From Henricia sp. BOLD:AAB3569 (Eukaryota; Echinodermata; Asteroidea; Spinulosida; Echinasteridae): a stretch of DNA of 64,000 bases. The stretch is taken from NCBI GenBank assembly GCA_037783545.1, contig JBBELK010000164.1, positions 1,054,001 through 1,118,000 of the forward strand, written 5' to 3'. The notes below the pieces were generated by a model. The model ran no database searches. It saw nothing but the letters and a program-made list of their open reading frames with translations, and was not told where the DNA came from. The position numbers and the translations under genes were made by a program. Each line of letters starts with the position of its first letter. Positions within the stretch are counted from its first letter, which is position 1. Positions 4,187-64,000 of this stretch are shown piece after piece.

Positions 4187-5267
4187 TTAAAGTTCGGTTA
4201 CTGGATGTTCGATGAATCCTTCGTCGCCGCTACTTGGCGAATCGGGCTGTTTAATGCCCGTTTCGGGATCTTGGTTTGTGGCATTTGGCACTCGGCTAAC
4301 CTCGGCATACAGTCCCTCGATTCCGTCCGTCGGGGGAGGGGAGGGCGGGCTGAAGTTACTGCTGATAGTGGTAGAGGCAGTGGGTCTATCCGAGTTGGTG
4401 CGAGCAGGTTTTGGGGCCGTGGGGAGGGGGTTCGGTTTAGTGGTAGAGCCAGGTCGATTTCGGTTGGTTTTGTCAACCTCCGCGTACATGCTTTCTGCTG
4501 CTATCACGCTAGATCGAGTAGGCGATGTTGATTTTGGTGGGGACAACTTCTTGGGGGTGATGTGGGTAAGCAGATCATCTAAATCAGCGGGTCTACCGCG
4601 AGGCCTGGCCCGTGCCTCGGCGTCTTTGATCCTGGGCGGCCAGCGCTCAGACGCCCGCTTGACCTTATTGATCTTGGCGTACAGTGCGTCGGTGTCGCCG
4701 CCGTATGAGCGTACCGAGGCCGACCTGTCCTCAAACATCGGGGGTGAAGTGACCGGGCGCACCCTGGCGCTACCTCCGCCGGACGACGCGTCGGAAGGCC
4801 CCCGTCTGGCTCGCTTGAGCGGCCGCTCGATGTTTCCGTACGGGTTGATAGTTTCGGCTTCGCCTTCCGGCTCTTCCCGTTCGATCTCAATCAGCTTGTC
4901 CCTGCTATTACCTGCCTGTGGATCGCTCGGCACCATACCATTTAGCATATCATCCCTATCAGCCTCGGTTGCGTCCCCCATGGCTGCCGCGTTTGCATAC
5001 ACGACCCCTCCGTTAGCCGTAGCCGATATATTGGCGTGTGGCATCTCATTGGTAGCCGTAGCCGGTGAGTTTGCATAGTGGACTTCGACATCGGTCTGGC
5101 TCCCAGGGGTATCATCCTCCTCTATGGCAACGATGCGTTGACTTAGAGGCAAACTGTCCATTGCCATATTAACCACACCGTCGTTATCGTCCTCGCGGTG
5201 CCCGTCTATGACTTCTGACACGTTCAGTGACGTATCATACATGGCTTTCTTCCGCCGCCTCGTATAC
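4187..5267 (-). CDS. Gene A terminal exon: cytoplasmic tail with YxN, YAxI and YAEV motifs
   Basis: The acceptor is TTTTTACTCAG at 5268 and completes an Arg codon split from the TM exon. The 359-residue tail is Ser/Pro/Asp-rich and GC-richer than its flanks. Tyrosine motifs in order are MYDTS, VHYANS, VVYANA, NPYGNI, DALYAKI, ESMYAEV and EGLYAEV. ESMYAEV fits the ITIM consensus (S at -2, V at +3); YANS, YANA and YGNI fit pYxN, the Grb2-SH2 type. SH2 partners are inferred. This is the longest tail in the cluster. Confidence 0.85.
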
Positions 5268-7935
5268 CTGAGTAAAAATGCACACAAACAAGTTCACTTC
5301 AACAGACCTAAGGCATAATGAAGTCACAGTTTGTTTACATGTACGCTTTCTTGTGGCTCTGAAAACCGTCTGCTTCCCTAAAGCGGGCCTCCCACTGTGC
5401 GATTTTTGCCACGAATAAAGTACGATTAGCTACGATTTGGTTACGATTGTGTATACTCTATAAATACACAATCGTAACCAAATCGTAGCTAATCGTACCT
5501 AATTCGATCGTGGCCAAAATCGCACAGTGGGAGGCCCGCTTTAGACCCTCAAGAAAATGCGCGCATGTGGAGTGTGACGTTATGTCTCTGGTCTACAGAC
5601 TAAAGTGCAAGTCATTCCTAGTAATAGCTGCATGGGGGGACCCGAATGAGTATACCACTGTACCTCATAGCTCAGCTGGTAGAGCATCTGCCCAGTGAGT
5701 TGGTCACAGTTCAAACATTTTATCCATGAGCACACATTCAAGTTAATAAATAAATAAATTTAAAAACTAAATAAACACAAACTCATACGTTCTCTTTTAT
5801 TACTAAATTGTGTACGTACCTACTCCAGACGAGGAATGTAAGCAGTAGAAACACAAACAGCACGATTAACATGATGACGATGGCTATGATTAACGTCAGG
5901 ATATCTATAATATATTTTAAAATGCACAAACAAGATTTTTAGACTTTATGTCCACAATTTCCCCAGTATTAATGTACTTAAAAAAAACATTATACCCACA
6001 CTTTGCCAACCTTCTCCACTGCACTAGACACAATGCTTTGTTAGATGGCAACTAATTTTGTTCACTGCTGTCGCTGGCATCTCGTGATGTCATTATATGT
6101 TTCAGGTTTGTAAAAAAACTCCTACATTTCGCTATAAATCGCTTGAAGGATGCTTACCAATTCTGCAAGTTTCTTCCGGTTCAAATTCGCCAGTGTCTCC
6201 ATTGCAAACTGTAGTGTAGTTATTGACCGACCGGAAACCACGGTTACACAAGATGAGGACTTCCGTGCCGTCTACGTAACAGTCGGCGACAAGCGACGGC
6301 AGAATATCCGGCCTTTCGCTCAGTGTTTGCTCCGGATGCGGACACCTGTTGCTCATACATTGTGCGTTTGAAAGTCCTGTGTCAAGAAATTAAATGCCAA
6401 AACTTAATTTATAATTCTTTCATGACGAACCTACCTAAAAGATATATTACAGAAATGCAATCACTACCATTTTGAGGCAAACGAAAGAAGGCACGCCATT
6501 GGTTTAATCAAGCGTTGCGCGTGACAAGAATACGCACAACGCGCACGCAAGTCGCTCAACCAATAATGAACGTCATTGAAGCATGTCTTCACGTTGGCTT
6601 CCAAAAATATTCTTTGCACATATTTCCATACCGTCTATAGTTCTGTGACATCACCACACAAAAATTGCGAACATGAATATTAATTTTCTTCGATGTGAAT
6701 AATAAATCAGTAGCACCTGTAGAATGAAATACGTCATGAATGCATAATGATGCTGAATGAATATTAAATTAGTAGCCCCTGCATCGGTTGTTGCAGCACA
6801 TTACTCATCATTATACATGCTGATGACTTATGATCTTGTAATGGTCTCTTTTTCTACACGTTATGATAATCATGCAAAGATCCCGTGCACACGGAAGTGA
6901 AATAGGCGTTGTGCGTTTTGGAGGAACCAGTGTACCGTACCATTACAGTTGTTGACATACAGTATGCCCCACAAAGTAATCAAAATGCTATTAGTAGACC
7001 TACTATGGTCATATTTATATGCAGAGGGTTGTATAATATTTGTACAAAAATGTCATTACTCGGTTCGCCAAAAGGTAGTTCAAGCTGAATTTACGTTTTG
7101 TATTCAAAATTAAAACCGATTTAAAATCAATGGAAAATTAACCTTATTATGCGAGGTTGCTGAGGTGTATTGGTAACATTAAATTACTTTAAAAAGATTA
7201 TTTTAAGATAAAGTATTTGTTCATGCAGGTTTAACGTTTGAGGTTCTGCAGTAAGTAAGCCAAATTCCTACATAACAAAATAATGAATGAATTAATATAT
7301 CAGTTCAAATATCTGTACGATGGCGGCCATTTTGAATATGCAGTACTAATTACATACATTGGTAGGAATTTAGTGTTTAAACTATCACTATTCTAACGTT
7401 TGAGGTTCTGCAGTAAGTAAGCCAAATTCCTACATAACAAAATAATGAATGAATTAATATATCAGTTCAAATATCTGTACGATGGCGGCCATTTTGAATA
7501 TGCAGTACTAATTACATACATTGGTAGGAATTTAGTGTTTAAACTATCACTATTCTTTTCTTTAAATAAAATTGCACTTTTAAAGGAAAAACTCAATTTT
7601 AGGAGGGAGGATATGACGTTTTAGTATTTTCTTCAATTAATTTTTTCAATTACCACTGGTATACCATGCACATGACGAAAATATCTGCGCCACTTTCTAA
7701 AAACAACACAAAACATATTTTAATCCCTACGCCATGGCGCCAACAAGGCAACAAAATCTCATCCAACCAATCGATACGATTTAATTACTTGTACTTGGTG
7801 ATTCACGCTTGTATAGCCTTTCTCCATAGTCTTACCTGACACCATCTGCACAACGATCCAAACGAAAATCACCTGTTGAAAAATGCAGACGAAATGGAAT
7901 GTCCGCCCTAAATCACGCACACCTACAACGGACAT
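4187..7935 (-). CDS. Receptor gene A: signal peptide, one CCP domain, TM, long tyrosine-rich tail
   Basis: Four exons: 7836-7935 (signal peptide, ATG at 7935, donor G|GTAAGA), 6158-6376 (CCP), 5820-5904 (TM, donor AG|GTACGT) and 4187-5267 (tail, stop TAA). Phases are 1, 1 and 2 and join without a frameshift, giving about 494 residues. Residues 1-34 are hydrophobic late (FVCIFQQVIFVWIVVQMV); 35-106 form a CCP; 108-134 form a TM helix (ILTLIIAIVIMLIVLFVF) followed by basic YTRRRKK; 136-494 are cytoplasmic. The protein is predicted to be a type I plasma-membrane receptor. Its CCP is closest to those of genes B, C and D, but its signal peptide, TM and tail are its own. An upstream in-frame ATG exists in the first exon; 7935 was preferred because it gives a conventional signal peptide. 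Ligand and function are unknown. Confidence 0.85.
5382..5540. mobile_element. AGCGGGCCTCCC MITE, copy 1
   Basis: Terminal inverted repeats of about 35 bp (AGCGGGCCTCCCACTGTGCG...). The right flank is TTA, the left TAA. Lies in the TM-tail intron of gene A. Confidence 0.8.
5662..5765 (+). mobile_element. tRNA-derived SINE fragment
   Basis: The A-box-like TAGCTCAGCTGGTAGAGCAT is followed by a degraded B box (GGTCACAGTTCAAA) and an AAATAAATAAATT tail. Lies in the gene A TM-tail intron. Confidence 0.55.
6158..6376 (-). CDS. Gene A CCP exon
   Basis: A 219-bp phase 1-1 exon: acceptor TTGACACAG, donor ATTG|GTAAGC. It has four CCP cysteines (RCPHP, LILC, TTVC, EETC) plus an extra pair (NAQC and ADCY) seen also in genes B to E. 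The usual CCP tryptophan is replaced by Phe in GEFEPEE. One N-glycosylation sequon lies in NNYTT. Confidence 0.88.
7232..7555. repeat. Essentially perfect 162-bp tandem duplication
   Basis: 7232-7393 repeats at 7394-7555 with no difference seen by eye. It lies in the gene A signal-CCP intron, and the near identity implies a recent event. Each unit contains GATGGCGGCCATTTTGAAT. Confidence 0.85.
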
Positions 7936-9112: not shown

Positions 9113-10330
9113 TTATGTGAACCTTTTTTCCACCTAGCACCAAAATAATATTTGAAAATTTTATGCCTAAGTAGACAAAATGTTACCTAAATTGAGTAAG
9201 ACCCAGTATTTACCGCGCGCTGTGGACAGAATCTACTTCCTTGTATGTGAACAAAGGACCAGTAAATCCACATTTTCTATCGTCTATTCATGGGAACCCA
9301 ACCATAATGTGCCGAAATAAGATCCAAAGTCAACAACTTTGACATTTTTTTGTAAATACTCGACCTGTATGCGCATTCCGGAGTTATAACTTTGTCATGT
9401 TCATGAATAAGTGTTTGGTACTATACTGCAAAATCGGAATATAGAATTAAGTAACGACGAAGACATGCTAAAGCTTTTCGACTTGCACTCATCAGAGCAA
9501 AACGCAAGAATGGCGTAGGTGACGCTATCGATAAGGCTGATGCGCGGCTGTGGCATATACGTTGCTGGATTTACACGGTACGAATACATGTACAGCAATA
9601 TTTCACTTGTCGGCCATATTGAATAAGTCACTTCAGAGTTTGCCAAAAGTGACACGTGCGCATGCCAAGTGAAAACTCCAAAGTTGTTATCGCTTAATTT
9701 AATTTCAGGCAATCACAAATGAACATAAATTTCTCTGATTAATAATTTAAAATTTTAATTAAAAATGTCTGTTTAATTGTGTGATTAAACATAATTTTAT
9801 CGTTGCTTCCAACTAGTCTGGCGCCATCACAACCAGCAGGCAATATTTTACAAACTAGAGTCAGGAGACACGGTTGACTGGGAAGGGCTAATCTGTTTGC
9901 GCCTTCATTGGCCAAAATGTTATACGACACGTAACCACGAGGTCGCGTCTTTTTCTTGTAAACTGACGTAAAAACAATTTTTTCCTGCAGATAAGGTAGG
10001 TCTCGCACACAATACACTCATTGTTTTTCGTAAATTTGATTTTTGTACTTGATATAATACATGTATGAGTGTTAATATATACTATTTATCAATGTTTCGT
10101 CTGGCAGTAAGCAACCCACAATGCTCCGCGCGACTGTATATGTGACCTTTTCGTAACCGGTTTCCGTCACAGAAATTTGTGAAGGCACATCAGTCCGTAT
10201 ACCAGCGCCCAGTATGGGTGGTAGAAACGACCGAAGTCCACTTAAGACGCCACTTCTCTCTATATGGCAGGACAATTTGCGTAGATGGATTCTCCTTCAC
10301 CCGTCTGACATGCCATGTCACTATAATCAT

Positions 10331-10760: not shown

Positions 10761-12518
10761 CCCTGTACACAGCTCGGATGACCGGTTCATTCCTAGCTAC
10801 ATCATTTGGTATGTCGTGGTCCTTCGTTTTGTGACTTATCAACCACAGAAAAAGAAGAATTTAATCACAAATTAATCCTATTGCCTACAGTGCACACCGA
10901 GTGGCGAAAACAATTTCAGATTTTATCACAAAAGAAAGCACGGCTCGGATGACTGGTTCATTCATATTAGCATTTTGTACCTCGTGGACCTTCATTTTGT
11001 GCCTAATCAAAGTAATCAACCACAAAAAAGAGTGAAATTATGAATCTTAATAGAGTTCCTTTGTTGAGAGAGTTTAAGGTAGTATACTTGTTTGGTAAAC
11101 TGTTACACACGGCATAATTTCCACTGGCAGTTAAAGCCTATGTCGAGAAAACTACCTTGTCGAAATTTCAGCCACATAGGCCTAGATGCAGTAATACTTC
11201 AGAAAACTTTTAAAAATCCAATCACGGTTTTGTGACGTGCTGAATGAATGAATGGCTCCAAAGATCGCCTACAGTTTTGTCATTTTGGGGCACTTCAGAC
11301 GAAATAACTTCACAGGATGATTACTATCGTTACCATCTTGATAACAAGTAAGCTTTCAGATAATAATTCAGACTTTGTTTTTGAAAGGGTAATTACAGAA
11401 CAAGTATAGACTACTTTTAAAACATTAACAGTATACATTATACGGTTTACCTTTTGAATATTTGAATGGCGTAGCAAAGAAGTACTGCACCAACTGCAAG
11501 CGCAAACATATCAAGTATTGATGCTACAAAAACCGACAGGAGATCTGCAAAATAAATAATACTAATATATTAATAAAATTATTTAATATCTGAATAATTA
11601 TATGAATAAAATTAATTGAATTGCAAAGTGAAATATATATATATTGAAATATATATATATATATTGAAATCACGAAAATTGTTGATATATAACTGACGGA
11701 CGTTATTGCATGCGTATGTAAGAATTTTGTATAAACATGGGAAAAGAGATTGGCTTATTGAAAATTCACTCAAATTGCTCTGATTAATCAGAATACACAG
11801 TACACGTACTCTTATTGGCTTAAAATGCTAAAGCCGCATTAAGGGCAGAGAGGTGATTGGCTGAAACGAGTATGACTGGTTTAAATAGTTTAAATATGGT
11901 GATTTGTAAAATAAGAAGGACTGTGTCGCTTGTTCGACTAAAATGCACTGTTATTAAAAAAAATCCCAAAAGAAAATCCATCACCTCACTTTAAAGCGGC
12001 TTGTTCTTACCAATTCTGCAAGTTGCGTCCGCTTCAAATTTGCCATTCTCTCCATTGCAAATCGTCGTGTAGTTACTGTTGACCGACCGGAAACCAAGGT
12101 TACACATCATGACGACTATCTTGCCGTCTTCGTAGCAGTCGGCAAGCGACGGAAGAATACCCGGCGTATCTCTTAGTGTTTGCTCGGGACGCGCACACGT
12201 GTTGCTCGGACATTGTGCGTTGGAAAGTCCTTTTAAGAAATGACATTCTAAAATTTAATCTTTATGCACATTCGGTATGAACCGCCTAAAAGATTAAACA
12301 AGAAAAGTTCAATTGCTGCCGCTTTAAGGCAGACGAACTTTGCAAAATAATTATTTTACATGAAATAGATTTAACTATAGCTGTAACACACATAACCAAT
12401 TCCAGTCTTAAATAAAAAGGAACGAAGTTCACCTACCTGCAAAATAGTGCACGCCCAGCAGCACCACACGGAGAAGAATTGTACAAAACTTAGAAGACAA
12501 AAAGTAGCAATCCGCCAT
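10441..12518 (-). CDS. Receptor gene B: signal peptide, CCP, TM, short tail with alternative tail exons
   Basis: Exons: 12437-12518 (signal peptide, MADCYFLSSKF start), 12011-12229 (CCP), 11451-11544 (TM) and a tail exon. Three tail candidates follow: 10885-11002, 10666-10834 and 10441-10510. With the middle one, phases fit and the protein is about 187 residues: CCP at 29-100, TM at 102-131 (LLSVFVASILDMFALAVGAV), tail at 133-187. The CCP and TM exons contain no long ATG-initiated frame, so they are recognised only by splice sites and homology to genes A, C and D. The TM donor is AG|GTAAAC, lacking the consensus G at +5; failure to splice would stop translation at once (AGG TAA). It is a close paralogue of gene C. 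Confidence 0.8.
10666..10834 (-). CDS. Gene B main tail exon
   Basis: The acceptor is GGTTGATAAG; a 55-codon phase-2-compatible frame ends in TAA. The tail holds AVYRAYEEPEPVVEL and RCVYKDV, the two tyrosine clusters also found in gene C. One extra T after GAC GT removes the TAG used by gene C and by the distal copy and adds IAKRTHIIK. No canonical ITIM or ITAM is present. Confidence 0.65.
10885..11002 (-). CDS. Gene B proximal tail exon, probably degenerate
   Basis: The acceptor CTTTGATTAG at 11003 opens a phase-matched frame of 38 codons ending in TAG. It starts HKMKVHEV and contains MNEPVIRAV, matching the first half of the gene B/C tails, then runs into unrelated sequence. It keeps no tyrosine, so if used it would give a signalling-dead tail. 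It is either an alternative exon or a remnant of tail duplication. Confidence 0.5.
11078..11375. mobile_element. Dispersed repeat in gene B TM-tail intron
   Basis: About 300 bp, related to 40217-40555 (shared GTAGTATACTTGTTTGGTAA-like end, GATCGCCTA core and GGCACTTCAGACGAAAT). Confidence 0.6.
12011..12229 (-). CDS. Gene B CCP exon
   Basis: 219 bp, phase 1-1, acceptor CTTAAAAG, donor ATTG|GTAAGA. It shares the six-cysteine pattern of gene A (AQCPSNTC, ADCYEDG, MMCN, TICNG, ATC) and has one more residue before the NYTT sequon (SVNSNYTT). It diverges most at EDGKIVVMM. Confidence 0.85.
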
Positions 12519-14157: not shown

Positions 14158-14394
14158 GAGTCAGGGGACACGGTTGACTCTCTCTATATGGCAGGAAGAT
14201 TTTCGTAGATGCGTGCTCCTTCACCCAATGTGTTTTCATAAATTTGATGAAAACGTACAGGCTCCGTCTGACATGCCATGTCACTACAATCAAAGAAAAC
14301 AAAATGGGCGATAGGAGTAAATTACTATTCATAATTTAATTTTGGCAAAGACATTGTGACTGAATTAATTTTTGTATAAGGTGCGTTCGTTTAG

Positions 14395-14548: not shown

Positions 14549-17500
14549 CTTATTAACCACAGAAAAAGAAGAATTTAATCACAAATTAATCCTATTGCCT
14601 ACAGTGCACACCGATCAGTGGCGAACAAAAATTCAGATTTTATCACAAAAGAAATCACTGAGAATGTTGATTTACATAACATAATAATTGTAAGAACTCT
14701 GGATGCGGCAATAGGGCGACATTTCGGGAAGACTCTTCCCGGAGACCACCGAAATTTCACCAAGAACCACTCAAAATGACACCTTATTTTTTACCCGAAG
14801 CTTCCAAAAATGCTTCCAGACCTAGGAGAATGCATAGTTCCGACCTGTCAATCAAGCCGAACCCGCGACCAATCACAACAGAGCTAGCAGACGGCGCCCA
14901 CAAAGGTCAAAGTGATGCAATCATCACAAACAATGCACGCGATTTTCTGCCCATACAGTTTGTATGTTGTATGTGCGCCAGTGACCGGGTGAATTTTGGT
15001 TTCAATGTTTGGCGATTCGCTGTTCAAAGGTAGGAAAGCGCAATTTTATGAAAGATATGTCATCCCTGCATTACTAGCCCTTCGCTCAGTGTGTGCTACG
15101 ATAACTGTCGACCCTAAAACATAAATACCTTTGAGTTTTCTCCAATGAATCTGTGCTTTCCATGCCGAGTCCCGTTGCTTTGTACGTAGTCTTGCCCTTT
15201 TTTTGCGATGGCTTGTGAGCACATAGCAACAATATCTAAGGGGCGGGGTTAACTGGGCAATCTCGGAACTATGCAATAAAAATGGTTCTCGATTTAAATG
15301 TCGCCCTATTAAGCATGTCGCCCTAATATAGCTTTTTTACACACAAATTGTCGCCCTATCCTAGCAAACAGAGTTTTTGCGGTTATGCCAACATCTGTTA
15401 TTGTATTATATTCTTTTGAAATTTTAGTTCAATAAACAGGAAGTGATATTATTATATAAAATGAAGCTTTTGCGGACAACGTGCGTTTCTGATACTGTGC
15501 ATGCAGCACAGCACAAACCCCAATCTGATGCGTGTGCAGCTGGGCGCACCAAAGCACACGCGTACGTACGCGCGCGTCATGCATCGAGTGAATGGATTGC
15601 GCGTGTGTGCTACGCGTAACAAGTACAGTAACAATAATACTGTACAACAATAACAAAAGCACAAAGACAAAAATCTCGCGGAAATCTTTCAAAACAAAGC
15701 TTCATTTTATATAACAATAATAATATTGGATGTAGGCGCGCCTATGTTCGGATCAGAATATACCGCACTCGTCATGAAAATACCGAACTCGCATTCGACT
15801 CGTTCTGTATTTTAATGACTCGTGCGGTATATTCTCATATCACCCTCAAAGCCATCCAATATTATATAAATTCTCCAAAATTAAGAACATAAAGGTGTGC
15901 GATCGGACGGTTTGTACAGTTGTGGATTTAATTGCTAAAATACGGGTTACCTCTTGAAAATCTGAATGATGTAGCAAAGTACTGCACAGACGGCAATTGC
16001 AAGTATACCCAATACTGCTGCCACAAGAACCGTGAGGAGATCTGCAAAACAATTATCAAATTAATAGAATTACAAAGTCTTAATCTTGCAAGCCAATTCT
16101 TGCATGATGTTTGACCACCTCGTAAAATTGCGTATACCGTTTTTTTTACTCTAATTTTTAAAAATAATTTTGAAAACACGGATACTGTGGTACTTTATAT
16201 GCATGTGACGATATTATTACATGAAGGTCTACCTTGACTCATGGGATAAGGAAATGGCTTATCAAAATTTTGACCAATTAGAACACTTGCTACAAGAAAA
16301 TGCATACTGCACGCACCCTCATTGGTTTAAAATGTCAAAGCCAGAGATATGATTGGCTGATGAAGTGAGTATATTTGTAAAAACAAAAGGTCCGTGCCAT
16401 AAAAGTGTCCGGAAATCGTTCCCTAACGTAGATATAACAGTATAAGACATAGTGACGTCACATTTTATTTACCGTTACGTGTGCGTATTTCTATGGGAGT
16501 CCAAGTTTCAGTGTAAACAGATGTTTCAAAGTTTCGTTATTCAACACAAAACATTCCATCATCTCGTTTTAAACAGATTATGCGGGTCTGCTTACCAATT
16601 CGGCAGGTGCCGCCCGCTTCAAATTCGCCAATGTCTCCATTGCAAACTGTAGTGTAGTTACTGACCGACCGAAAACCATGGTTACACACGATGAGGACTT
16701 CCGTGCCGTCTCTATAGCAGTCGGCGACAAGCGACGGCAGAATATCCGGCCTTTTGCTCAGTGTTTGCTCCGGACGCGGACACGTGTTGCTCACACAATG
16801 TGAGTCTGAAAGTCCTGTAAAGTAATAAAATTTAAACAAAATTATAATTGAGCATGAACCCACCTAACAGATAAAACACGAAATTGCAATCGCTGTCGAC
16901 TTATAAATAAAGCAAACGAGGGACGAGGTTTTGCCATTGGTAGATTGGTCTCCGTACCTTATATTCCACATACGACGAACACGGCTACGGTACCTGTGCC
17001 CTTGGGCAAGGCACTCAACCACACTTGCTCCATCCTTCGGAAGGGATGAAAAGCCGTTGGTCCAGTGTGTTAGGTAATGGTAACGCACTCTAAAGATCCC
17101 AGAGAATTCTTTCGTGAAGAGCAAGGGGGATTATCCCCGGTGTCTCTGGTCATTTCTAATTATAATTCTTCATGGGTTTCCTCACGCTTGCGAGTGACAG
17201 TGCAATGAGCACTATTGAGGAATCCTTGGTATGAATACCAGAAATAAATAATAATAATAATAATAATAATAACACAAAGATCTTCTCAAAATAGTCGGAA
17301 TCTGGGAACCAGACTACGCCATTGGTCCAATTAAGCCTTGCGCGTGCCAATAATACGCACAACGCGCAACGCACACACAGGTCGCTCCCACTTAAGCCCG
17401 CCGCACACCTTTGCGATTTACCGGATAATCGGACCATCGGACCACTTACCGGAAAGGTGTGCGCTGAAACAATTCGGGCCGGTCTTTCCGCACGCTATAG

Positions 17501-17927
17501 ACCGGAGCAAATCAAACTTGTTTGATTTTTTCCGGATCCGATGGTCCGGTGTCCGATGCGCCGGTAAATCGCAAAGGTGTGCGGCGGGCTTAATGAACGT
17601 CGCTTCACCACATATGTCACAGTTTTACATGCCGCACATCTTTGCGATTTTCCGGCCCATCGGACACCGGACCATCGGATCCAGAAAAATCAAACAAGTT
17701 TGATTTGCTCCGGTCTATGGCGTAGCCTACGGCCAGACCGGCCCGAATTATTTCAGCGCACACCTTTCCGGTGGTCCGTGATCCGATTATCCGGTAAATC
17801 GCAAAGAAAACAATAACTGTAATTAAAGAAGGAACAAAGTTCACCTACCTGCAAAATATTGCACGCCCAACACCACACGGAGAAGAATCGCACAGAACCC
17901 AGTAGATAAAAAGTAACAATCCGCCAT
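14395..17927 (-). CDS. Receptor gene C: signal peptide, CCP, TM, short tyrosine tail
   Basis: Exons: 17849-17927 (signal peptide, MADCYFLSTGF start), 16596-16814 (CCP), 15951-16041 (TM) and 14395-14548 (tail, TAG). Phases 1, 1 and 2 match; the product is about 180 residues: CCP at 28-99, TM at 101-129 (VLVAAVLGILAIAVCAV), tail at 131-180. The TM donor is AG|GTAACC, with no G at +5, and an in-frame TAA spans the unspliced junction. Introns carry a SINE, two TTAA hairpin elements and an AGGGCGAC-type element. The CCP, signal peptide and 5' flank are the template from which gene D's were copied. Confidence 0.82.
14711..15359. mobile_element. ATAGGGCGAC element
   Basis: ATAGGGCGAC at the left and GTCGCCCTAT at the right, with a further TCGCCCTA pair inside the right end. 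No coding capacity. In the gene C TM-tail intron. Confidence 0.55.
16596..16814 (-). CDS. Gene C CCP exon
   Basis: 219 bp, phase 1-1, acceptor CTTTACAG, donor ATTG|GTAAGC. Six cysteines are in the cluster pattern (DSHCVSNTCPRP, ADCYRDG, IVCNHG, TVCNGD, GGTC). It is nearly identical to gene D's exon except around RPDILPSLV and the last loop (FEAGGTC). Confidence 0.88.
16983..17270 (+). mobile_element. SINE-like insertion with AACAC target duplication
   Basis: It contains GCCCTTGGGCAAGGCACTCA and ends GGAATCCTTGGTATGAATAC plus (AAT)n. AACAC flanks it at 16978-16982 and 17271-17275. Gene D's paralogous site (21267-21271) has a single AACAC and no insertion. Confidence 0.85.
17396..17589. mobile_element. 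TTAA-flanked hairpin element
   Basis: GCCCGCCGCACACCTTTGCG and its complement are the ends, with TTAA at 17392-17395 and 17590-17593. It is absent from the paralogous gene D intron near 21402. Confidence 0.8.
17630..17806. mobile_element. Second, related hairpin element
   Basis: Shares CCGATGGTCCGG-type core and the GACCGGCCCGAATT segment with 17396-17589 in inverted order, ends worn. It is not present in gene D. Confidence 0.6.
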
Positions 17928-18036
17928 TTTGAAAGTTGAAACGGTGCATGTACAGCAAAATAAATTGTGGCTCATTTCGTTCGTAGTTGTCATTTACTCA
18001 TGCCTGCATTACTCATGCCCGTGTGTAGACGATTTC

Positions 18037-18129
18037 GTTTTCCTTTCCTTGTGCGATTTCGCACATGATTACGTGCGTGTGTCCTTAATTTGGAATGTTT
18101 TCACTTCGTTGCGTTTGAATACATGGGGG
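18037..18129 (-). promoter_or_regulatory. Conserved block upstream of gene C
   Basis: Same block as upstream of B and D, 110-200 bp before the ATG. It is closer to D than to B, as expected from the C-D duplication. Confidence 0.45.
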
Positions 18130-19039: not shown

Positions 19040-19165
19040 TTAAGCAATTTAATCTTAGTTTCTTAACACGATGCGTTTTTATTTTCATAAACGGATTCAT
19101 ATACCGGCGGGTGCTCGTTGAAATAGAATAGCGTTGAATGATAAACATATAGTATTATTCAAAAT

Positions 19166-19776: not shown

Positions 19777-19884
19777 TGGGTGTGGGGGCGAGGGGGGGGG
19801 GGGGGGGGGGGGGGTATAGGGTGGGTATGGGGAGGGGGTATGGGGTGGGGGTATGGGGTGGGGTATGGGGTGGGGGGAGGGGGA
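19777..19884 (-). repeat. C-rich tract just after the gene D stop codon
   Basis: On the coding strand this is a CCCCAYACCCC-type low-complexity tract starting 15 bp after the stop, so it would be in the 3' UTR. The opposite strand is G-rich and could form quadruplexes. Confidence 0.7.
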
Positions 19885-47961: not shown

Positions 47962-50900
47962 CTGTCGGTAGAATGACGTGAAATGAAATAAATATTATAA
48001 ACGGGGTTTGGTCAAAGTAAAAAAAAAAAAAAACAAGAATGTTTACTGTGATGTCATGCCGGCAAGTTAATGTTGGTACTTTAAGATAGTTTGGCAGCTA
48101 CGTGTATATAAATGCACGCGTCTTAGCGTTTTGTGAACCCCCCCCCCCCCCCTCCCCCCCCCCCCCCCCCCCCCCTCCCCCCGGTCACTATTACGCCAAC
48201 CCGACTGCATAATGTATTGCATCAAATTATATGGGTGGTTGGGGGGATACATTCAATACACTGGTGTTTTAATAGTGTTTGTTTTTAATTAAATCAGAGA
48301 TATATTATTTTAAAAATCCAACAAAATACTTACTTTTTGCAGCCAATTATCACAGCAAGCGAAACAACAAAGATGAATAAAGCCAGGGAAACGGCGATAA
48401 TGATTATAAGCCATAGCATGATCGATGGGCCTGAGACAAAAACGGAGAAAGAACAGAAAATGTCAGCAACTTTGCAGTTGAGATAATTTGGGCCGTTAAA
48501 ATTATGGTTGTTAGAAATATGACTTGTACTGCCGAGACAGATGATTATACGTGTGTTCTGTCGTAATGGCGAAGCACGAATGCTATTATTCATATATACA
48601 CGCATACAAAACAATCGTATTACAAATCACAGCTCGATCGCCTCTGACAAGATTATGATACTAAAAATAGTTATTGATCGAAATCTCCAAATTTGTACCG
48701 CGATGACAAACAGATGGGGATAATTAGGAGCAGGTGTTTTGGGTACAGCGCCACCTATTGTCCATTCAAGGTAAGGAACAAAATCGTACAGGGAATGAAT
48801 AAAAAATAACAATTTAAAAAAAAAGTCAATCAATAAATACAAATCATTTTCTGGGTCATGCACGTTCTGCCAGATGACCAGGTATTGGGCAGCCATGTTG
48901 GAATTCTTAACCAATCAGATTGCATGTAAGCCGGGAGACTTTGTTTTGTCTCTTGATAGTTAACACTTGAATGGACAATCTTAGAAAATGATCGGCTTAC
49001 TTTCTGAGCACCATCTTTATAACTAGCTCAAAAATTAGATGTTCCATGATTCTACTTCAAACCTAATCCATATCTTTGGGTTTTCTCGGTACAAAGTACA
49101 TTCAACTAGAAAAGTTAAACTTTATTTTTCCTCGAGTACGCATATGTACATGTACTTGAATTTTCTTTCAACAAGGACGATAAGAATATATTTGTGCAGT
49201 TTGGTAATATATGAACAGGGAATAACTTAACGAGAAAGGAAAGCAATGCATTTTTGGGATGGATAACAACATTATAAGCACTTAAATGAAAACAAGGATC
49301 TTAGAAGGTAGACATTGGATGCATTTATTTTGAGTAGGCCTACTTCGACTGGTCTCCGGAGGGCCCTGTAAAAATGCCACTGCCATCGTAACTTGGATGA
49401 TTCAATTCGAATTGCAAATGAAACACGCGCGTTCTGCTGTTTTGATTGGCCACACCCACCTGAGCGTGCATATTTGGCCATCGTCGTCGTCATGCCTCCC
49501 TGCCATGGCGTTTCAGTGACGTCATCTGTTCGTATTATCGTCTCCCCGTCTGTTACTGCTATTTCTGTCTCCCCGTCTGTTACTGCTATTTCTGATACAG
49601 ATTTAAGACAACATTTAGGAAACTTGCTGTCAGAAACAAACACATTTCCAAAACAATTTTAAATTGATAGCTTTCTCATGACGTCATGTTGTGTGTCAAA
49701 TAATGCCGCGTCATTGTGGAAGCAATGTGCGTGCGCGTTGTGTGTGTCCATAGCACGCGTAACGCTCTGTACTAAGGCGCCCATTGGTGAACTAAACCGC
49801 GCTACGCCCACCAGAGACACACGCAACGCGCACGCACATCACTTCCACAATGACTCGGCATTATTTGACCGACAAAATGGCGTATTCGCACGTGGTCGAA
49901 AGCTATCTATTGGAAAGGACAATATGAGACAATACTAAAATAGAACTTACTGTGGCCAAACAGATGAGGGCGCTGTTTTAACAAACTATGTAGAAATATC
50001 TGTTCATGTATCATAATATTTCTATCTCAAGCAAATCAGTGGGTTAATTAAATCTGACTTTGATGAGGGACGTTGTATGTCAACCCCAAACACGACGAGT
50101 GGAACCAGCAACCTTCTTAACTTACACCGAAGTGCACAGGGGAACCCTAAACACGACGGGTGAAGCATGCACCAGACTCCTAACTTTGAGAAATCAGACA
50201 TTTTATGTCAATTGTTTTATACGTTCATTACGGTCAAATGAGCTTGATTTGCAGAAAATGTCGCATTGATTGCCCACTCCTACTACTAGTAACACACTGA
50301 TCTAATTGTTGGTATGACATTTAACATTCACTAAGTACACAAAGTAAATTGTTTAGGACATATAGGCCTATATACGTGTCCATATCTCTATGTTTTGGAA
50401 TTTGTAACAAAACTGGGTGTACATGAAATGTATACACCAATCCGGTAACTAAGGTCTCCTTCCCTGTACATCCGCCATAGCTGGGGGGCTTCCACTGAAT
50501 GAACTGTATGTTTTTGCTGTTGCTGAAGCTGCATTTGTTTACTTCCAACAAGTTGCGCGTCTTTGTAGGGTTGCGTGTACGCGAAGGAGGCGCGTCGCGT
50601 GCACGCGGAGGGGGCGCGTAATGTAATGGATGAGCGCTTTTCGTTCTAACAGCAACACAAAACGCACAACAAATGCATTGGACGCCCCCCAGCTATGGCG
50701 GATATACAGGGAAGTAGACTTTCGTTACCGGATTGGTCTATAGGAATAACAAAAAATGCATCCTTACCGTTTGTACTTTGTGTATTAAACATTTCAGTTG
50801 CAAGAGAGGTTATAAAAACAGTCATTTGCAATGTTTGAATCTCAGTTGGCTGCTCAACCGTTGCTTGATTTTCCGTTGGGTCAATTTTCGTGGGTTGTCC

Positions 50901-53900
50901 ATCCGTCGGTTCAATTTCTGTGGGCTGCACATTCGTGGTTGGCCGTTCTGTGTGTGGCATTTTCGTGGAATATACATGTATTTCTGTAGTGGAGAAAAAA
51001 AGAACCCTCGTTTTTAAAAGCTCATTAAAACACACATAGTTCGATTAAAGCACTCTAGTATACCGTTATACGTTGGATACAATTTCAAGTACAATGTAGA
51101 TCAAATATATTAGTCTAACACACAATGCTCAAACACGAACTGAGGTATGAAGTCCTATGTACATGTGTGTCTCGTCCCAAAATGCAAACTATATTTGCTT
51201 TTAAACAATCAAGCAAGAATTATTATTTATTATTATTTTGTAATTTTAAATATCGTAACACTTTCACTGTGCTCCTACCTTGGCAAGTACCATCTATATG
51301 CCACCTTCCCTCCATACACGTGAGGTTCAAGACCACATCGGTGACGTCACAATCAAACTTCAACTTGTCCCCTCCTTTAAATTCCGCATTTATTTCAGAG
51401 GCGTTCCCCTGGAGTGTCGCCCCTGGCGGCACCTCGGGCGGTGCGCAGACGTCTGGGAGACAAGATGGCGGCGGGTGATTCCATTCACCCAGAGGGAGGC
51501 ATGTAAGTTCGGCAGGACCGGTCAGAAAGAAACCGGGTTGGCAAGAAATATTCAAGTTTTGACCGACCTCGAAAAACTCTTTGGCGGGAGATGATAATGT
51601 CGCGTTCGGCGGAGTATCAAACGGGAGACAGCCTATTAAAAATATAACAGAGACTTTTTAGTACAAATTACGTAACGCCCTCTTTTGACGCCATTTTCGG
51701 TTCACACGAAGGTATCCCATTGGTCAGAATTGAGATGCGCCCGCGCGTTGAGTGTAAACCTGTGTGGGTGCACAAGGCGCTTTTTTCACTAATAGGGAGG
51801 TTTCGGTCGCATACGGTTAGGCAAAACGACGACTATTAGTGAATTTTACGTCATCGATTTGTGCGTATATACTTGTGGCGTTTACACAAATATCCCAAGT
51901 GTTGTTTTGTTGTTTACACTGATAGCAACGCCTCTACACCTTAGTGAAAAACGGACAGCGAAAGGTAACGATTTTGAGGTTTGGCTAATCGTAGTCGTAA
52001 TCACTAACCGTGCACACCGAAACCTAACTAATGATACGCATCATTACGTACATAATTAGTCTTTTGTGCCGATTGCACGTACAAGTAACGTAAGCTACAC
52101 ATATATAACAAAATATAAAATAGCATTATAAATACATTTTAACAAACGAACCGATTTCATAAATCTCCATCCGTAAGGCCGTGCCACAGCTTTGGGTGGG
52201 GTCGCCACTGCAGTTAGACTTGCACAAGTCCTCGTTGGGCTCCCGGCCGTGCGTGGCATACATTGCGGATTTATCGCCACAGAAGCATTGATTTTCCGTT
52301 TGCACGCCCGCATAGATGAAGTTTAGGCGGGAACAGATGTTGACGCAGTTCGAGACGGACATACTGGCGCTCTGGCAGTAACTGAAGTCGGAACTGCAGT
52401 AGTTGTTACATAAGGATCTAAAGTCTGAACAGGAGGTTAGGCCAGACAGGGCTCGATCGTGACTGTAGTCATAAAAGCAGCCCAAATAGCGAGAATCTGC
52501 TGTTGAAAAGAAACAAACATCAACTTAAAGTTAACTGTAAAAATGCCATATTTCTGAGGAATCGACAATGTTTACAAAAACAATGCCCTGTAATTTTACG
52601 GACTAGTAACAAATACAAGGAATCTGCATTCGATTAGCACGACCACAATATAGATAACCAACATTTCTGTAAAATTATGGATTTAGGCCTATTCCGTGAA
52701 ATCACAATTGCTTTTGTCAAAAAGTGCATTAACACATTCCCATCCTCCAAGCAAAAGGGGAATGCACTGCATGACAATAGCAGTGGATTTTGTGACATTT
52801 CACTTTCCACCCACCCCTGTATTCCGCTATACTGCACATCCCCCAATTGATTAATCATAACAAATGACACATCACTGTAAAGAGGAATAACAAGGCTTTC
52901 CAATGATACCAAATTCAAGGAAAATGATTTAGTAACAAGAGAGAAATCGTCAGTCAAACTTGACTTTCCGAACGTTTTTTGAGGAGTTTATATGTAAAAC
53001 ACGACAGGTGTCATATAAATTTGTCGATTTTTCGTTTCGAACATCGATCAACTTATGCATCGCAAACAAAATGCTATTTTGAATTTTAAATACATGTTTA
53101 AAATATAATTACCAGATGTTGCATGGTTCAAAACATTTCCGAGTGTAAACGGATTTTGCAACGGATAATGATTGTTGTGTAATCAAGTGTGAGCGGGCTT
53201 TGACACACAAGGCCTGATATAAGCAAATTACACGTTATTTGCTATTTAATTTCACGATTTTATTTTCAACATCACCTGCGCGCAGGTTTAAATTGGATTA
53301 CTCCAGCCGGCAATATTGATATGAAATGGACAGTCATGCATTTAATGACGATCAAATTTAATGGCAGATGTTACAAAAGTACTACATGTCTGCTGTAGAA
53401 TATGACTTTCAACATTTCCAACCTTCACAAAAATTCCCGTGTTTGTTGCAAATATTTATCGAAATAATATTTGAGTTTAAGTTCATTCTATGATTTAATT
53501 GCATGCTGTATTCCATGCGATATTTCGCTAAACTTTATTTCGCGCCAAAATGGATGCGGTCGTGGAATTCGTTGACATTTTAGTTTTTCGTTACTATTTT
53601 CCGTGTGTTTGATATTTGAAAGGAAAATATTTACACTTGCAATAGCTATGTGGAATCAGTGTTAATATTGGGGATAACACTACTTATAACCACACAGAGA
53701 ACACGATTTCTTTAATATGCTTTTTAACGATTTCGTACGATTTCTTACGATTTCTAGTTACGACAGTTTATTCGGCCAACTCGCAACAAAAAGGAATGCA
53801 GTAATTTGTTGATTTTTGTGATTATGCTCGGTGTCTTGTTTGTTTTCTTGTCAGAAATACATGTAGGCACTCTATACGTCCCTGAATGATCCGTCAGCGG

Positions 53901-56900: not shown

Positions 56901-58231
56901 GCCAAATTCGTGCCACGAAATACGCAGCTCAATAGCAAAGGCATGGAGCTGCGTATTTCGTGGCACGAATTTGGTGCGCGCGCATTGCTGACGAGCCAGT
57001 GCCTTAAAGACTACATTTACAACTTGCCAGAACGAAGTGATGTCGATAATTAAAATGGTACTTTTTCTACAGAAGATTGATTAAAGATAGTATACATGAT
57101 TGGTAAACTGTTACAAATAGTTTTATCCCCCTGTGTGATTGAAGATATGCATGATTAAAACCAACCTGAGCAAAAACCAGCTCCGTACGTCGTCTAACTT
57201 TTGAATAAACAGTCAAAAAAGGGTTTGCAGTCATTTCGCCCCAAAACCACTTCGCCCTGAACCATTTTGCCCTGAACCACGGCCTGTGCACGCACGAAGT
57301 GACTTGGGGCGAAATGGCACTCGGGCGAAGTGGTTTGGGGCGAATTGATTTTTCGTCTCATGAGACGAAAACTAATTTGCGCGCGCCAAATTCGTGCCAC
57401 GAAATATGCTGCTCCATAGCAAAGACATGGAGCTGCGTATTTCGTGGCACAAATTTGGCGCGCGCGCATTGCTGACGAGCCTGTGCCTTTAAACAGCAAA
57501 TTGCCTTCTCGTGTAGACGATATGATATCTACTGTGTATACGGCGCAGCTAATTAGTTTATACGGTATAGCGATCTCGTTTAAATTGCATTTCTAGGTCA
57601 TTTAAAGGAGACAGCTCAGCTGTGTCCTTTTAATCAAATAGGACGTCGTTTAAAGGCACATGACTGTTTGCTATGACTGCCTATTTTGTGGCACGAATTT
57701 GGCCTCACGCGCGCACTGACGAGCGCATGAGTATCGCACAGGATAGATATGCGCACCATATAGCCTAAGATGCCATTATCATAATCGTCATCATCCCATT
57801 CGGAAAGAATTTAGAAGTTGATCATGGTTTTAGAACCTCTGTGCGAACCATACAGACCTAAAACAGGTTGAAAACCTTTTAGGTGTTTTCTCACAAAATC
57901 TTAAAATTTTCTCACTTCTAAATTAGGGTTTTGCCATCTAATCTGCACCTACCGATGCTTGATGAGTCATTTTAAAGAAAACAAAATATGATCAACTTTT
58001 AAATTCTTACCTCCCGTTCTATATGATTTCTATCCCGTTTTTTATCCCGTTTTCTATCCCGTTTTCTATCCCGTTTTCTATCCCGTTTGTTATCCCGTTT
58101 AAACGCATGCAAACTCATGCAAACGAAAATACAAGTAAACGTGTTAAAATCTTACCTTGACCGTTTGTGCTGATGGTGGATGCCACTAAAACTAACAACG
58201 CAAAAAGCCGTTTTCCAACAGTCTGAAACAT
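47511..58231 (-). CDS. Receptor gene H: WSC, two CCP, Thr/Pro stalk, TM, multi-tyrosine tail
   Basis: Six exons, about 513 residues: 58156-58231 (signal peptide, core FALLVLVAST), 52152-52499 (WSC), 51279-51632 (two CCP), 50768-50983 (stalk), 48334-48430 (TM) and 47511-47961 (tail, TGA). Phases are 1, 1, 1, 1 and 2. WSC spans 27-141, CCPs 143-259, stalk 261-331, TM 333-363 (LIIIIAVSLALFIFVVSLAVI), tail 365-513. WSC domains are putative carbohydrate-binding modules, known from fungal Wsc sensors, Kremen and polycystin-1. It is the most complex ectodomain in the cluster. The first intron is 5.7 kb. Confidence 0.87.
48138..48182. repeat. C homopolymer tract in gene H TM-tail intron
   Basis: Over 40 nearly uninterrupted C (three T). 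Length is likely unstable and prone to assembly error. Confidence 0.8.
49694..49870. mobile_element. Hairpin MITE in gene H TM-stalk intron
   Basis: TGTCAAATAATGCCG pairs with CGGCATTATTTGAC; the inner arms are GCGTGCGCGTTGTGTGTGTC and an imperfect complement. Confidence 0.65.
50435..50740. mobile_element. Inverted-repeat element next to gene H stalk exon
   Basis: CACCAATCCGGTAACTAAGG and the imperfect complement; CATCCGCCATAGCTGGGGGG also pairs. It ends about 28 bp from the stalk donor. Confidence 0.62.
50768..50983 (-). CDS. Gene H Thr/Pro stalk exon
   Basis: 71 codons with a degenerate repeat of about 9-10 residues: QPTEIEPTDG, QPTKIDPTEN, QATVE, QPTEIQ. No cysteines. It is likely O-glycosylated. 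Donor AACG|GTAAGG. Confidence 0.85.
51279..51632 (-). CDS. Gene H exon encoding two CCP domains
   Basis: The first CCP runs CLPFDTPP, ISCQPGFF, LTCLPLGEW, PSCLP. The second runs VCAPPEVPPG, FDCDV, LTCMEGRWH, GTC. Both keep the tryptophan. Unlike genes A-F, two modules sit in one exon without an intervening intron. It has several sequons (NAT, NIS, NAS, NLT). Confidence 0.9.
51789..52032. mobile_element. Inverted-repeat element between WSC and CCP exons
   Basis: Left GGAGGTTTCGGTCGCATACG, right GTGCACACCGAAACCTAACT, imperfectly complementary over about 60 bp. Confidence 0.45.
52152..52499 (-). CDS. Gene H WSC-domain exon
   Basis: The order of WSC hallmarks is YLGCFYD, CVNICSRLNFIYAGVQ, QCFCGD, EDLCKSNCSGDPTQSCG and MEIYEI. 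There are twelve cysteines; four of them lie in an insertion (SCSDFRSLCNNYCSSDFSYC) not usual for the family. The acceptor is a tandem CAGCAG, which could include or drop one residue. Confidence 0.9.
52500..56871. other. Gene H intron 1, left part
   Basis: No coding exon found between the WSC exon and the signal peptide; only the dispersed repeat at 54186-54316. Plus-strand frames of 77-84 codons at 54615-55170 have no domain and no homologue elsewhere in the window. Confidence 0.5.
54186..54316. mobile_element. Dispersed repeat with GTTGCTATGTGGTGCACG ends
   Basis: The right end CGTGCACCACGTAGCAACAA is the inverted match. A related end occurs at 31196-31222. Confidence 0.5.
56872..57003. 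mobile_element. AGGCACAGA hairpin MITE in gene H intron 1
   Basis: Same family; TTAA on each side, with one terminal base lost on the right. A left-truncated relative follows at 57379-57488. Confidence 0.78.
57085..57380. repeat. Second copy of the GGGCGAA composite repeat
   Basis: Same order of blocks as 24705-25060, with fewer minisatellite units. The 5' block alone also occurs at 28065-28275 (twice) and 43366-43470. Confidence 0.65.
57379..57488. mobile_element. Left-truncated AGGCACAGG hairpin element
   Basis: It lacks the left end and abuts a GGGCGAA-type repeat; the right end GTGCCT-TTAA is intact. A further remnant lies at about 57652-57725. Confidence 0.65.
58017..58100. repeat. CTATCCCGTTTT minisatellite near gene H start
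   Basis: About six units of TCTATCCCGTTTT with minor variation, 56 bp into intron 1 from the signal-peptide donor. Confidence 0.75.
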
Positions 58232-61383: not shown

Positions 61384-64000
61384 TCACAGCCTGGTTGCAG
61401 AAGTTTTAGTGGGATCGGCAAAGAATGACTTTTCATTGGTTTCCGAGTCGAGAGTTTCCGAAGACCCCCTTCGCCTGCTCTTATCGACTTGTGCGTACAT
61501 GGCTTTTGTCAGGTCGTTCGGGTTGACTACCGTGTTATCTTCGTTCGACACGTTGTCTTCGTCATCTTCGTAATCGGCTAGAGTCGTTCGCTGGTACAGG
61601 CTGCTCGGCCGACTCCAGCCCACAAGATCCTTGGTTCCCTTGCCGTTCTGCTTCGGGCGATGCCGGTAACTATTCGTGGACGAGTTTCCTGCGGAGTTCG
61701 GCGCGTGTTCGGACGTGACGTACACGTTTCCCGAATCCTGCCGATCGTACCCCGAATTGCCGTTCGGTAGAGCCGCGTCTGAGTTCGCGTAAATTGGACT
61801 CGGTGGGCTAGGTTCTGCTTCGTTTTGATAGATTGGATCCTCTGCGAACGTGGACAAACCAGGCTGGAATTGGTGTTCGAAATCGGCGTTCGGCGACGGG
61901 ATTCCGTTCGTAGGCGAGATAACATCGGGCATGTCAATCTTTGATTCTTCATCTCCATGGAAACCTTTGTTAATGAAAGTCACCTGTGCTTGTTCGGGTT
62001 TTAGGCTAATATCACGCCCACCATTTCCCGTTCGGTTCCTAAACGTATAAGAAAGAGAGAGGATAAAAATCAAGGTTGAAAACGAGACACGTTTAGATTC
62101 GTTTGAAAGTACAAACGATCGAGCGACACTGCTTGACACTAAAACACCTACTTTGTGAATGATGTTCTTTGGCGTCCGATCAATTAACAGACCCTTGAAA
62201 AGTACGGGAAAGAATTCCGTTTACTGGTCGCCACTTATTTTCCTTAAAATGACTAAATAACCACCAAAACATGTTAATATTTTTAAGGAAAGTGAAAAAC
62301 ATTCAACAATTTCCTTGAAAATACTTGAAGGGCCCATGAAATGCTCAATAACTTTATGCACAGTTTTTGCTGCATATGAAGGATTACTTGTGTATAGAAA
62401 GACTGCTGCAGTTTCCAGCCTTATTTTATTTTTTTTTTTGCAACAGGCAACATGTAAAACCAACCTAAACCGTCATGGGTTACAAAAGTTTCAGCAAGTT
62501 GGAGAAAATTGTGGAAACTTTTGTGCACAGTTTGATGAGATTTTCCTGTGTTTTCCTAATGTGACATCACCACTTTGCTCATGCATATGTAAATTTGCAT
62601 TTAGCATAACAATCAAAAACCTTTTTTCACCTCAAAAACAACTTCCAAGTAGGGTTTTTATGATTGTAAATTAATGGACTGGTACCATAGCACAGATTTC
62701 ATTGATAAAAACACCATTTCAGGCCCTTGAAACCTTTTTTTCTGCCCTGTTCCCGTGGTGACCAGTGAATGGAATTTATACCAAAGTACGATTTTAGGTG
62801 AAATTCATTCGAGTGTTGCGTACAATCATCAGTTGCCTTCCCGACAACCACAGGAAATAAACTTTCAGTACCCGAGGCCTTTATTGAGAAACTCAAGTGA
62901 AGCGAGCAAAATGCAATAAATACTGAAAAAGCAAAGCCGAGCACAATAGACGCATTCTTTACTTAGTAAGTTCAACCAAAATCGAAAAAGGGTAAAACTT
63001 ATCGGATCCTTTCAGTGGTCAGTGAAGCGAAAACATCTGAAGAATAGAGTACTAAAGTAAAAACGTGACCCTTTGTGTTGTTCCAAGGTTACTGGGTCTA
63101 CACTACAACCTGTGAACGTTTCCCTGTGGTTTAATAATTAATGTTTTAGATTATCGGCGAATGTTTAGACCCAGTTATCCTGGCAACTGACGTCACACTA
63201 TAGGAGAACCTCTCGACAGGAACTTTGGTTTCTTTTAGGTAATCCTTCGGGCTCCGACTGGTTTCATTTTTTATTTATATATACACTGGGCAGGAGTATA
63301 GACGCCCCATGTAAATTATTTATGTAACGAGAAATGAAATAAATAAATAAATAAAATGACTTGCATGAATGTGTAAATGACATCACATGTATCTGAATAC
63401 AGTGAAACCTGCTATTAAGGCCACCTTGATAAACAGGCCACCTGCATATAGTGGCCACCCACCTTTGGTCCCAAATGCCATGTGTATAATGCTTAAGAAA
63501 CCTCTATAAAGAGGCCACCTCTTTATAGTGGCCAGTTTTTGTTTTTTTTACTATAGACAAGTTTCACTGTATTTTACGTCTTACCAAACTAGGTTTTCCT
63601 TTTTTCCTGTTCACTTACCTTCTTTGGCAAAGACAAATGGCGACTAGGCAGACGATAAGCAGGAAAAATAGCACAGCCGAACCGCCGATAATGTACGGTA
63701 GGAAATCTGGCGGGAAGAATAAAAAATAGGTCTAACTTTTAAACGAACTTCACTTCGTGAACACTTATTTTACCGACTTCTTTGAATGCATTATCGGTCT
63801 TTGTGAAGCATAGTGAATATATGAATTTCTAACGGGAAATATAATTGGGGTACAGCCTTGTCCCTGTAGGCCTACAGCACAAAATAATTTGTTTTTAAAT
63901 GTTTACCTGTAATTGTGCTTGGAGGCAAGGTCGCTGGAGTCTCCACGTCGGCTAATGTCGTCGTCTCCACTACGGGATCTGGGGAAGTAGCTGCCAACAG
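61384..64000 (-). CDS. Receptor gene I, partial: stalk, TM, long tyrosine tail
   Basis: Exons: 63907 to beyond 64000 (Thr/Pro stalk, cut by the window edge), 63619-63706 (TM, IIGGSAVLFFLLIVCLVAI) and 61384-62038 (tail, TGA). Phases are 1 and 2. The 5' part (signal peptide and ectodomain) is off the window. The 217-residue tail contains DPIYQNEAEP, SPIYANSDA, GNVYVTS, SSLYQRTTL, LADYEDDED and KAMYAQVDK. YQNE and YANS fit pYxN. YAQVDK closely parallels YAEVDK of gene A, suggesting distant common origin of the A and I tails. Confidence 0.85.
63400..63569. mobile_element. 170-bp MITE with TA target duplication
   Basis: CAGTGAAAC at the left and GTTTCACTG at the right, flanked by TA at 63398-63399 and 63570-63571. 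The interior has GAGGCCACCTCTTTATAGTG. TA target and ends fit Tc1/mariner-pogo-type MITEs (inferred). In gene I TM-tail intron. Confidence 0.72.

Follow-up and report, generated by a model that had tools for sequence, protein, structure and literature searches.

Can receptor genes that stand in a row exchange the half that senses a ligand with the half that signals, and can such an exchange be read in the DNA? The question is raised by a stretch of 64,000 nucleotides from the sea star Henricia sp. BOLD:AAB3569 (contig JBBELK010000164.1, here C164, positions 1054001-1118000), called the window throughout, which was analysed within one assembly of 740,731,340 bases in 2104 contigs. An original prediction, made from the letters of the window, had described a tandem cluster of nine type I receptors with exchangeable ectodomains and tails. 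We consider it fairly probable that the locus is a tandem row of type I receptors whose heads are CCP, WSC or mucin-like, that heads and tails are re-paired in it, and that these receptors serve a fast-evolving recognition and recruit Grb2-type adaptors.

Exon plan of the receptor genes

As rebuilt from splice sites and phases, nine genes lie in the window, all on the minus strand and in the order A, B, C, D, E, F, G, H, J from low to high coordinates. Their exon structure is seen directly in the DNA and agrees with what had been predicted: a signal-peptide exon, phase 1-1 ectodomain exons, a transmembrane (TM) exon, of which one per gene was found and which passes from phase 1 to phase 2 in nine genes out of nine, and one tail exon. 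The exon borders of the rebuilt genes are AG..GT with the phases kept. Because the ectodomain exons are phase 1-1 and the TM exon starts in phase 1, recombination in the intron between the CCP and TM exons would give an in-frame receptor.

The expected range of ectodomains, from one CCP to WSC-CCP-CCP to a cysteine-free stalk, was recovered as well: Pfam names Sushi and WSC domains, the CCP of genes A to E is single and has six cysteines, and the stalk exons of gene G contain no cysteine. The limits of the cluster have to be widened. Nine genes are indeed in the window, but the CCP and WSC exons of J lie past base 64000 and the row extends about 24 kb further, up to C164:1142041. It holds at least 12 genes over about 84 kb, nine of them rebuilt and three (K, L and M) placed by exon order.

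Gene D, a chimera joined within phase-1 introns

That ectodomains and tails are exchangeable was borne out in gene D, where the DNA junction of one chimera was found. Comparison of the window with itself gave eight colinear blastn blocks, 85-93% identical, that pair the stretch at 16.4-20.75 kb with the one at 20.75-24.1 kb. When their ends were aligned, the two copies of this duplication proved to abut within one base at 20750/20751, and 2747 of the 3235 paired bases (85%) are identical in an alignment of 4402 columns. Copy 1 (16433..20750) contains the CCP and signal peptide of C, a spacer, and the tail and TM exons of D; copy 2 (20751..24106) contains the CCP and signal peptide of D, a spacer, and the tail and TM exons of E. 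Copy 1 runs from the intron between the CCP and TM exons of C to what used to be the corresponding intron of an E-type gene. The result is gene D, a chimera in which a C-type signal peptide and CCP are joined to an E-type TM segment and tail: here the re-pairing of a head with a tail is visible in the DNA itself. Each of the two introns joined at the junction has phase 1, which keeps the chimera in frame.

The exons concerned, all on the minus strand, are the following. Gene C has a candidate signal-peptide exon (17849..17927), a CCP exon with Pfam Sushi above the cut-off (16596..16814), a TM exon set by splice sites and phase (15951..16041) and a tail of 32 residues with two IYEN motifs (14184..14283). 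In gene D the signal-peptide exon is C-type (21545..21623), the CCP exon (20893..21111) has C-type flanks, is itself nearest to A and scores below the Sushi cut-off, and the TM exon (20580..20661) and the 87-residue tail with YQN (19899..20163) are E-type. Gene E has a divergent CCP exon (24118..24327), a TM exon set by splice sites and phase (23927..24008) and a tail exon (23294..23519) with two possible acceptors 3 bases apart, the inner of which gives 73 residues with YQN. Tail and TM identities from the exon alignment were left unused, as its permissive gaps yielded 93% even between D and the tails of A and B, to which it is unrelated.

A repeat of 451 columns, 97% identical, links positions 3726-4176 and 18594-19043 of the window, and a similar frame was seen by eye near C164:1140686.

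The head block shared by J and K

A second pair of genes shares its head. Between J and K one blastn block was found (91.2% over 962 columns, C164:1119413 to 1118465), reaching from the WSC exon up to a point nine bases beyond the CCP exon of J. Identity in 200-column windows is 91-94% in the block, 42-75% after it and 60-76% before it; the head block is alike, and the TM segment and tail have diverged. The pattern fits gene conversion or head exchange. Gene J (minus strand) has its tail at 61384..62038 (217 residues; YQN, YAN, YAQV), a TM exon set by splice sites and phase at 63619..63706 and a stalk exon with an AG acceptor at 63907-63990; outside the window follow its CCP (C164:1118474-1118683) and, within the frame 1118990-1119586, a WSC domain above the Pfam cut-off (49.9 bits, C164:1119071-1119271). 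Gene K, on the minus strand beyond the window, shows by exon order a WSC, a CCP, a TM exon and a decayed tail.

Tyrosine motifs of the tails

The nine tails contain 35 tyrosines. Y-x-N, which we take to be the SH2 site of Grb2, occurs 11 times against a mean of 2.42 in shuffled tails, a count reached in none of 1000 shuffles, and is present in seven of the nine tails. Leaving out tails B and E gives nine occurrences for 2.33 expected, again with 0 of 1000 shuffles reaching it. Y[AG]x[VI] is found five times (0.56 expected), in tails A and J only; YAx[VI] presumably resembles Csk-type sites. Of the other patterns, Yxx[LIV] occurs seven times for 4.82 expected and YxxM is absent for 0.61 expected. 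Signalling through Grb2-type adaptors is supported by the motif excess as a predicted property of these tails. The membrane adaptors LAT, LAX, NTAL and PAG carry Y-x-N (Grb2) or YxxV sites in their tails and have no ligand-binding ectodomain; by description only, their tail motifs are like those of the sea-star genes.

Evolutionary rates and locus specificity

For the CCP exons, the ratio of non-synonymous to synonymous change (dN/dS) is 0.84 for A-B, 0.84 for A-C, 1.58 for A-D, 0.63 for B-C, 0.71 for B-D and 0.85 for C-D. It is 0.25, 0.60 and 0.18 for three pairs of signal peptides, 0.31 (D/E) and 0.37 (B/C) for TM exons, and 1.05 for the D/E tails, the B/C tails having zero silent changes. 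Compared as plain values, the heads seem to evolve faster than the signal peptides and TM segments.

The genome was searched at E <= 0.001, the best candidates only being scored, with tails A, D, H and J and the CCPs of A and E. The A-type CCP was found at four places, which are genes A to D, and the CCP of E matched itself only. So did the tail of A, as DNA and as protein, and the tail of H. The tail of D has two matches, D and E, and that of J also two, J and its neighbour K.

Proposed mechanism

We suggest that recombination in the CCP-TM intron brings the sensing heads and the signalling tails of this locus into new pairs. Binding of a ligand would lead a Src-family kinase to phosphorylate the tails, phosphorylated Y-x-N would recruit Grb2-type adaptors with Ras or Cbl as output, and at the YAx[V/I] sites of tails A and J another SH2 protein, for example Csk, could dock. 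Because the heads seem to change rapidly and those parts that were searched are specific to the locus, the ligands may be variable, either microbial or self/non-self. The receptors may have an immune or allorecognition role.

A number of observations weigh against this picture. Positions 18447-19030 of duplication copy 1 align poorly (windows of 50-71%). The CCP exon of D is nearer to that of A (91.3% identity, dS 0.065) than to that of C (85.8%, dS 0.181), the A-D value resting on three silent changes only; the C-type origin of the D head rests on the flanking introns, the signal peptide and colinearity, and its A-likeness would be accounted for if A had later converted the exon. Five of the six CCP pairs have a dN/dS below 1, on short exons with few sites, and the value for the D/E tails could reflect weak constraint. 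Y-x-N was chosen post hoc, from seven patterns tried, and none is present in tails H (10 tyrosines) and G (2 tyrosines). The tail of gene K has decayed, and for the signal peptide of gene E there are two candidates, neither of them convincing.

Alternative explanations and known receptor systems

The alternative that survives best is that these are non-immune receptors of adhesion or development, multiplied by ordinary tandem duplication, whose heads attach to matrix or to glycans when tissues adhere or gametes recognise each other, and whose tails bind Grb2 as those of growth-type receptors do. We give it a real, if minor, chance. CCP and WSC are general binding modules and both are widespread in this genome, with at least 147 Sushi matches (from the best 150 of 225 candidates scored) and at least 53 WSC matches (68 candidates scored), and Grb2-type motifs are not specific to immunity. 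However, the locus-specific heads and tails, the dN/dS of the heads, nearer to 1 than that of the signal peptides and TM segments, and the re-pairing of head and tail suggest a fast turnover.

More specific, and in our view rather unlikely, is the proposal of a complex for self/non-self or pathogen recognition like fester/FcoR or KIR, independently built from CCP and WSC heads and Y-x-N tails as Grb2 scaffolds, in which the phase-1 introns would be a seam for recombination between head and tail, with new germ-line pairings that differ between individuals. In the available parts of two papers (PMC12065747, PMC3549757), fester of Botryllus has immunoglobulin and Sushi domains with three TM segments, the FcoRs have immunoglobulin domains and tails with an immunoreceptor tyrosine-based inhibitory motif (ITIM) or a hemi-immunoreceptor tyrosine-based activation motif (hemITAM), and uncle fester duplicates part of fester but has a 5' half unrelated to it. 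As far as these parts go, the sea-star locus is like the fuhc locus in its clustered Sushi-bearing receptors and, for FcoR, in tails with tyrosine motifs, and gene D reflects an event of the kind seen in uncle fester, a re-pairing of head and tail. It differs in having CCP/WSC heads or a stalk, one TM segment and Y-x-N tails, and in belonging to another phylum. An ectodomain of immunoglobulin and Sushi domains with three TM segments was not seen in the sea-star genes: Pfam named no immunoglobulin domain in the ten stretches scanned (gene G and the stalks left out). The comparison with fester as a single-CCP receptor, drawn in the original prediction, is weak on the same description of fester (PMC12065747).

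Human KIR genes are in tandem, and their diversity goes back to duplication, to unequal crossing over and to the formation of hybrid genes (PMC3489906, PMC3606631, as available in part). The sea-star locus resembles them, on this partial account, in its tandem receptor genes with duplication and a hybrid gene. KIRs differ in their immunoglobulin ectodomains, their ITIM or adaptor-linked signalling and their HLA ligands. In primates, the ectodomain region of Siglec-11 and Siglec-16 is kept alike by gene conversion (PMC5701461, in the portion available), and conversion may likewise apply to the ectodomain likeness of J and K. The two Siglecs, as that portion describes them, are sialic-acid-binding immunoglobulin-like lectins, one inhibitory and one activating, whose binding has been assayed, whereas the sea-star receptors are known here from DNA alone. 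Ciona vCRL1, a variable CCP-bearing protein proposed as a marker of individuality, is a single polymorphic gene in what is accessible of its description (PMC5465252); the CCP is common to both systems, and what is accessible mentions no array of single-CCP genes such as the sea star has. The part of a 2026 review of echinoderm immunity that was available (PMC13428168) names Toll-like, NOD-like and scavenger receptors, complement-like molecules and lectins, and the words sushi and CCP have zero occurrences in its main text. No report of a sea-star CCP/WSC receptor cluster was found among the papers listed by a literature search that most subscription journals lay outside. The kind of system is thus known, from KIR, Siglec and fester; its domain set, Y-x-N tails and host were not met in the literature found.

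It is improbable that the genes are true paired immune receptors, in which activating tails with the full activation motif (ITAM) are opposed to inhibitory tails with an ITIM. The architecture is suggestive, and this part of the predicted paired-receptor analogy stands: similar heads are found on different tails (A, B/C and D; the duplicated units of C and D; the J/K head block), gene B combines a short tail with an aspartate in its TM segment, and another WSC and CCP locus (L043) has a tail-like frame with ITAM spacing. The tail motifs do not follow: the nine tails hold no ITAM (0.06 expected) and one ITIM-fitting motif for 1.39 expected, with no excess over shuffles, the related switch motif (ITSM) is absent for 0.24 expected, and the enrichment lies in Y-x-N. 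A pairing of the tails by ITIM and ITAM was rejected on these counts.

Very improbable is an assembly artefact, with two haplotypes joined in tandem in the D duplication or the cluster, or the presence of some pseudogenes: a haplotig-like contig pair (C428/C922, equal Sushi scores), a mitochondrial concatemer in the assembly and the decayed tail of K speak for it, but the two copies differ by about 15%, much more than would be expected of alleles, which together with zero N bases in the window led us to reject an allelic or assembly origin of the D duplication, and the DNA of tail A occurs once in the genome and the exon frames used are open.

Confidence in the gene models

Signal-peptide exons, predicted for every gene, were recovered as candidates in seven of nine (A, marginal; B; C; D; F; G, with a modest donor; H); E is unsettled, and none was found for J. 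The profile search proposed with the prediction gave Sushi above the curated cut-off in four of the seven CCP exons (A, C, F and the double exon of H) and WSC in H. The CCPs of B and D, which were submitted as untrimmed frames, scored below the cut-off, and that of E is the sole one of the seven without any Pfam match; it aligns to A-D at all six cysteines and is 34% identical to A. In the whole-genome Sushi profile search, F and H are the only genes of the window among the matches listed. AlphaFold2 modelled the CCP of A from a five-row alignment with a mean pLDDT (predicted local distance difference test) of 54.1, too low for the model to be relied on, and a PDB search with the tail of A gave no match up to E = 1.

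Some borders are weak. The CCP acceptors of B and D were missed by the splice-site scan and were set by homology; the donor of the WSC exon of H is GTTCGT (score -3.2), and low scores were also found for the TM acceptor of A (0.3), the TM donor of C (2.4) and two stalk donors of G (2.1 and 2.2).

Remaining genes of the row

Gene A (minus strand, as are B to H) has a signal-peptide exon of marginal hydrophobicity (7836..7935), a phase 1-1 CCP exon with six cysteines (6158..6376; Pfam Sushi 23.2 bits), a TM exon that starts in phase 1 and ends in phase 2 (5820..5904) and a tail of 359 residues with three YxN and with YAxV/I motifs (4187..5267); 359 codons free of stops have a chance of about 3e-8 under equal codons. 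A 295-codon open frame runs antisense to this tail (4191-5078, plus strand) and is probably a by-product of base composition. Intron 1 of A contains an exact tandem duplication of 162 bases (7232-7556), which is probably very recent. Gene B comprises a candidate signal-peptide exon (12437..12518), a CCP exon with a weak acceptor and a Sushi score below cut-off (12011..12229), a TM exon (11451..11544) with an aspartate in the membrane segment and a tail of 19 residues with IYAN (10260..10320); over 10260-11544 the short tail and the aspartate set it apart from its sister gene C.

Gene F has a candidate signal-peptide exon (36318..36378), one CCP (31413..31607; Pfam Sushi 45.5 bits), a TM exon set by splice sites and phase (30331..30415) and a 92-residue tail with YQN (29151..29430). 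Its intron 1 holds two 160-bp satellite arrays in opposite orientation (31789-32481 and 33541-34425). In gene G, a candidate signal-peptide exon with a modest donor (44787..44874, score 3.8) precedes a stalk of eight small phase 1-1 exons without cysteine (39861..42782), a TM exon set by splice sites and phase (39521..39644) and a probable tail of 72 residues (39086..39305). The stalk exons were picked by a filter for exons rich in threonine, serine and asparagine; five of the eight are similar units of 60-66 nucleotides, which suggests that exon duplication also sets stalk length. Gene H starts with a candidate signal-peptide exon (58156..58231), followed by the WSC exon with its weak donor (52152..52499; Pfam WSC 47.7 bits, above cut-off), the double-CCP exon (51279..51632; Pfam Sushi 50.2 bits), threonine-rich stalk exons (49460..50983, namely 50983-50768 and the candidate 49591-49460), a TM exon set by splice sites and phase (48334..48430) and a tail of 149 residues (47511..47961) with ten tyrosines and no YxN.

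Beyond the window and K, gene L (plus strand) shows by exon order a WSC, a CCP (1130080-1130229), a TM exon and a tail, and gene M (minus strand), at the end of the row near C164:1142041, a WSC, several CCPs, a TM exon and a tail. Just outside the row lies a retroelement-like frame of 1482 codons (C164:1154952-1159397, minus strand).

Related sequences elsewhere in the assembly

Rows of WSC exons were noticed at C3:2359969-2406683 (seven exons), C826:29127-116036 (eight) and C192:1215194-1373222 (four). In 13 of these 19 exons a listed CCP follows within about 1.2 kb, and the rows are probably tandem WSC-CCP gene families. The locus L043:747-3244 (C3:3577154-3580399), on another contig than the receptor row, has WSC and CCP exons, an upstream frame that is SRCR-like by eye, and the frame resembling a tail, in which YEDL and YTAL stand ten residues apart as in an ITAM. 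CCP exons on contig C165 were set aside, no TM exon being found within the 50 kb scanned. The 48,576-base contig C955 carries COX1 three times at a spacing of 16,221 bases; it is the mitochondrial concatemer and likely an assembly artefact. The 16,221-base mitochondrial contig itself points to a sea star as host: its COX1 can be read through with the code that echinoderms share with flatworms (AAA as Asn and AGR as Ser, at conserved places), and its genes stand in the sea-star order, F, 12S, E and T, an inverted 16S-ND2-I-ND1-tRNA block, and COX1, R, ND4L and COX2, those that are not tRNAs having been identified by eye.

Significance

The re-pairing of heads and tails by recombination is a pattern known from immune receptor families of other animals. 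In this sea star the DNA junction of one new receptor is visible, so that a comparison of individuals could put the shuffling model to the test. A recombination seam between the sensing and the signalling halves of a receptor may be a further route, and a testable one, to receptor diversity in animals without lymphocytes.

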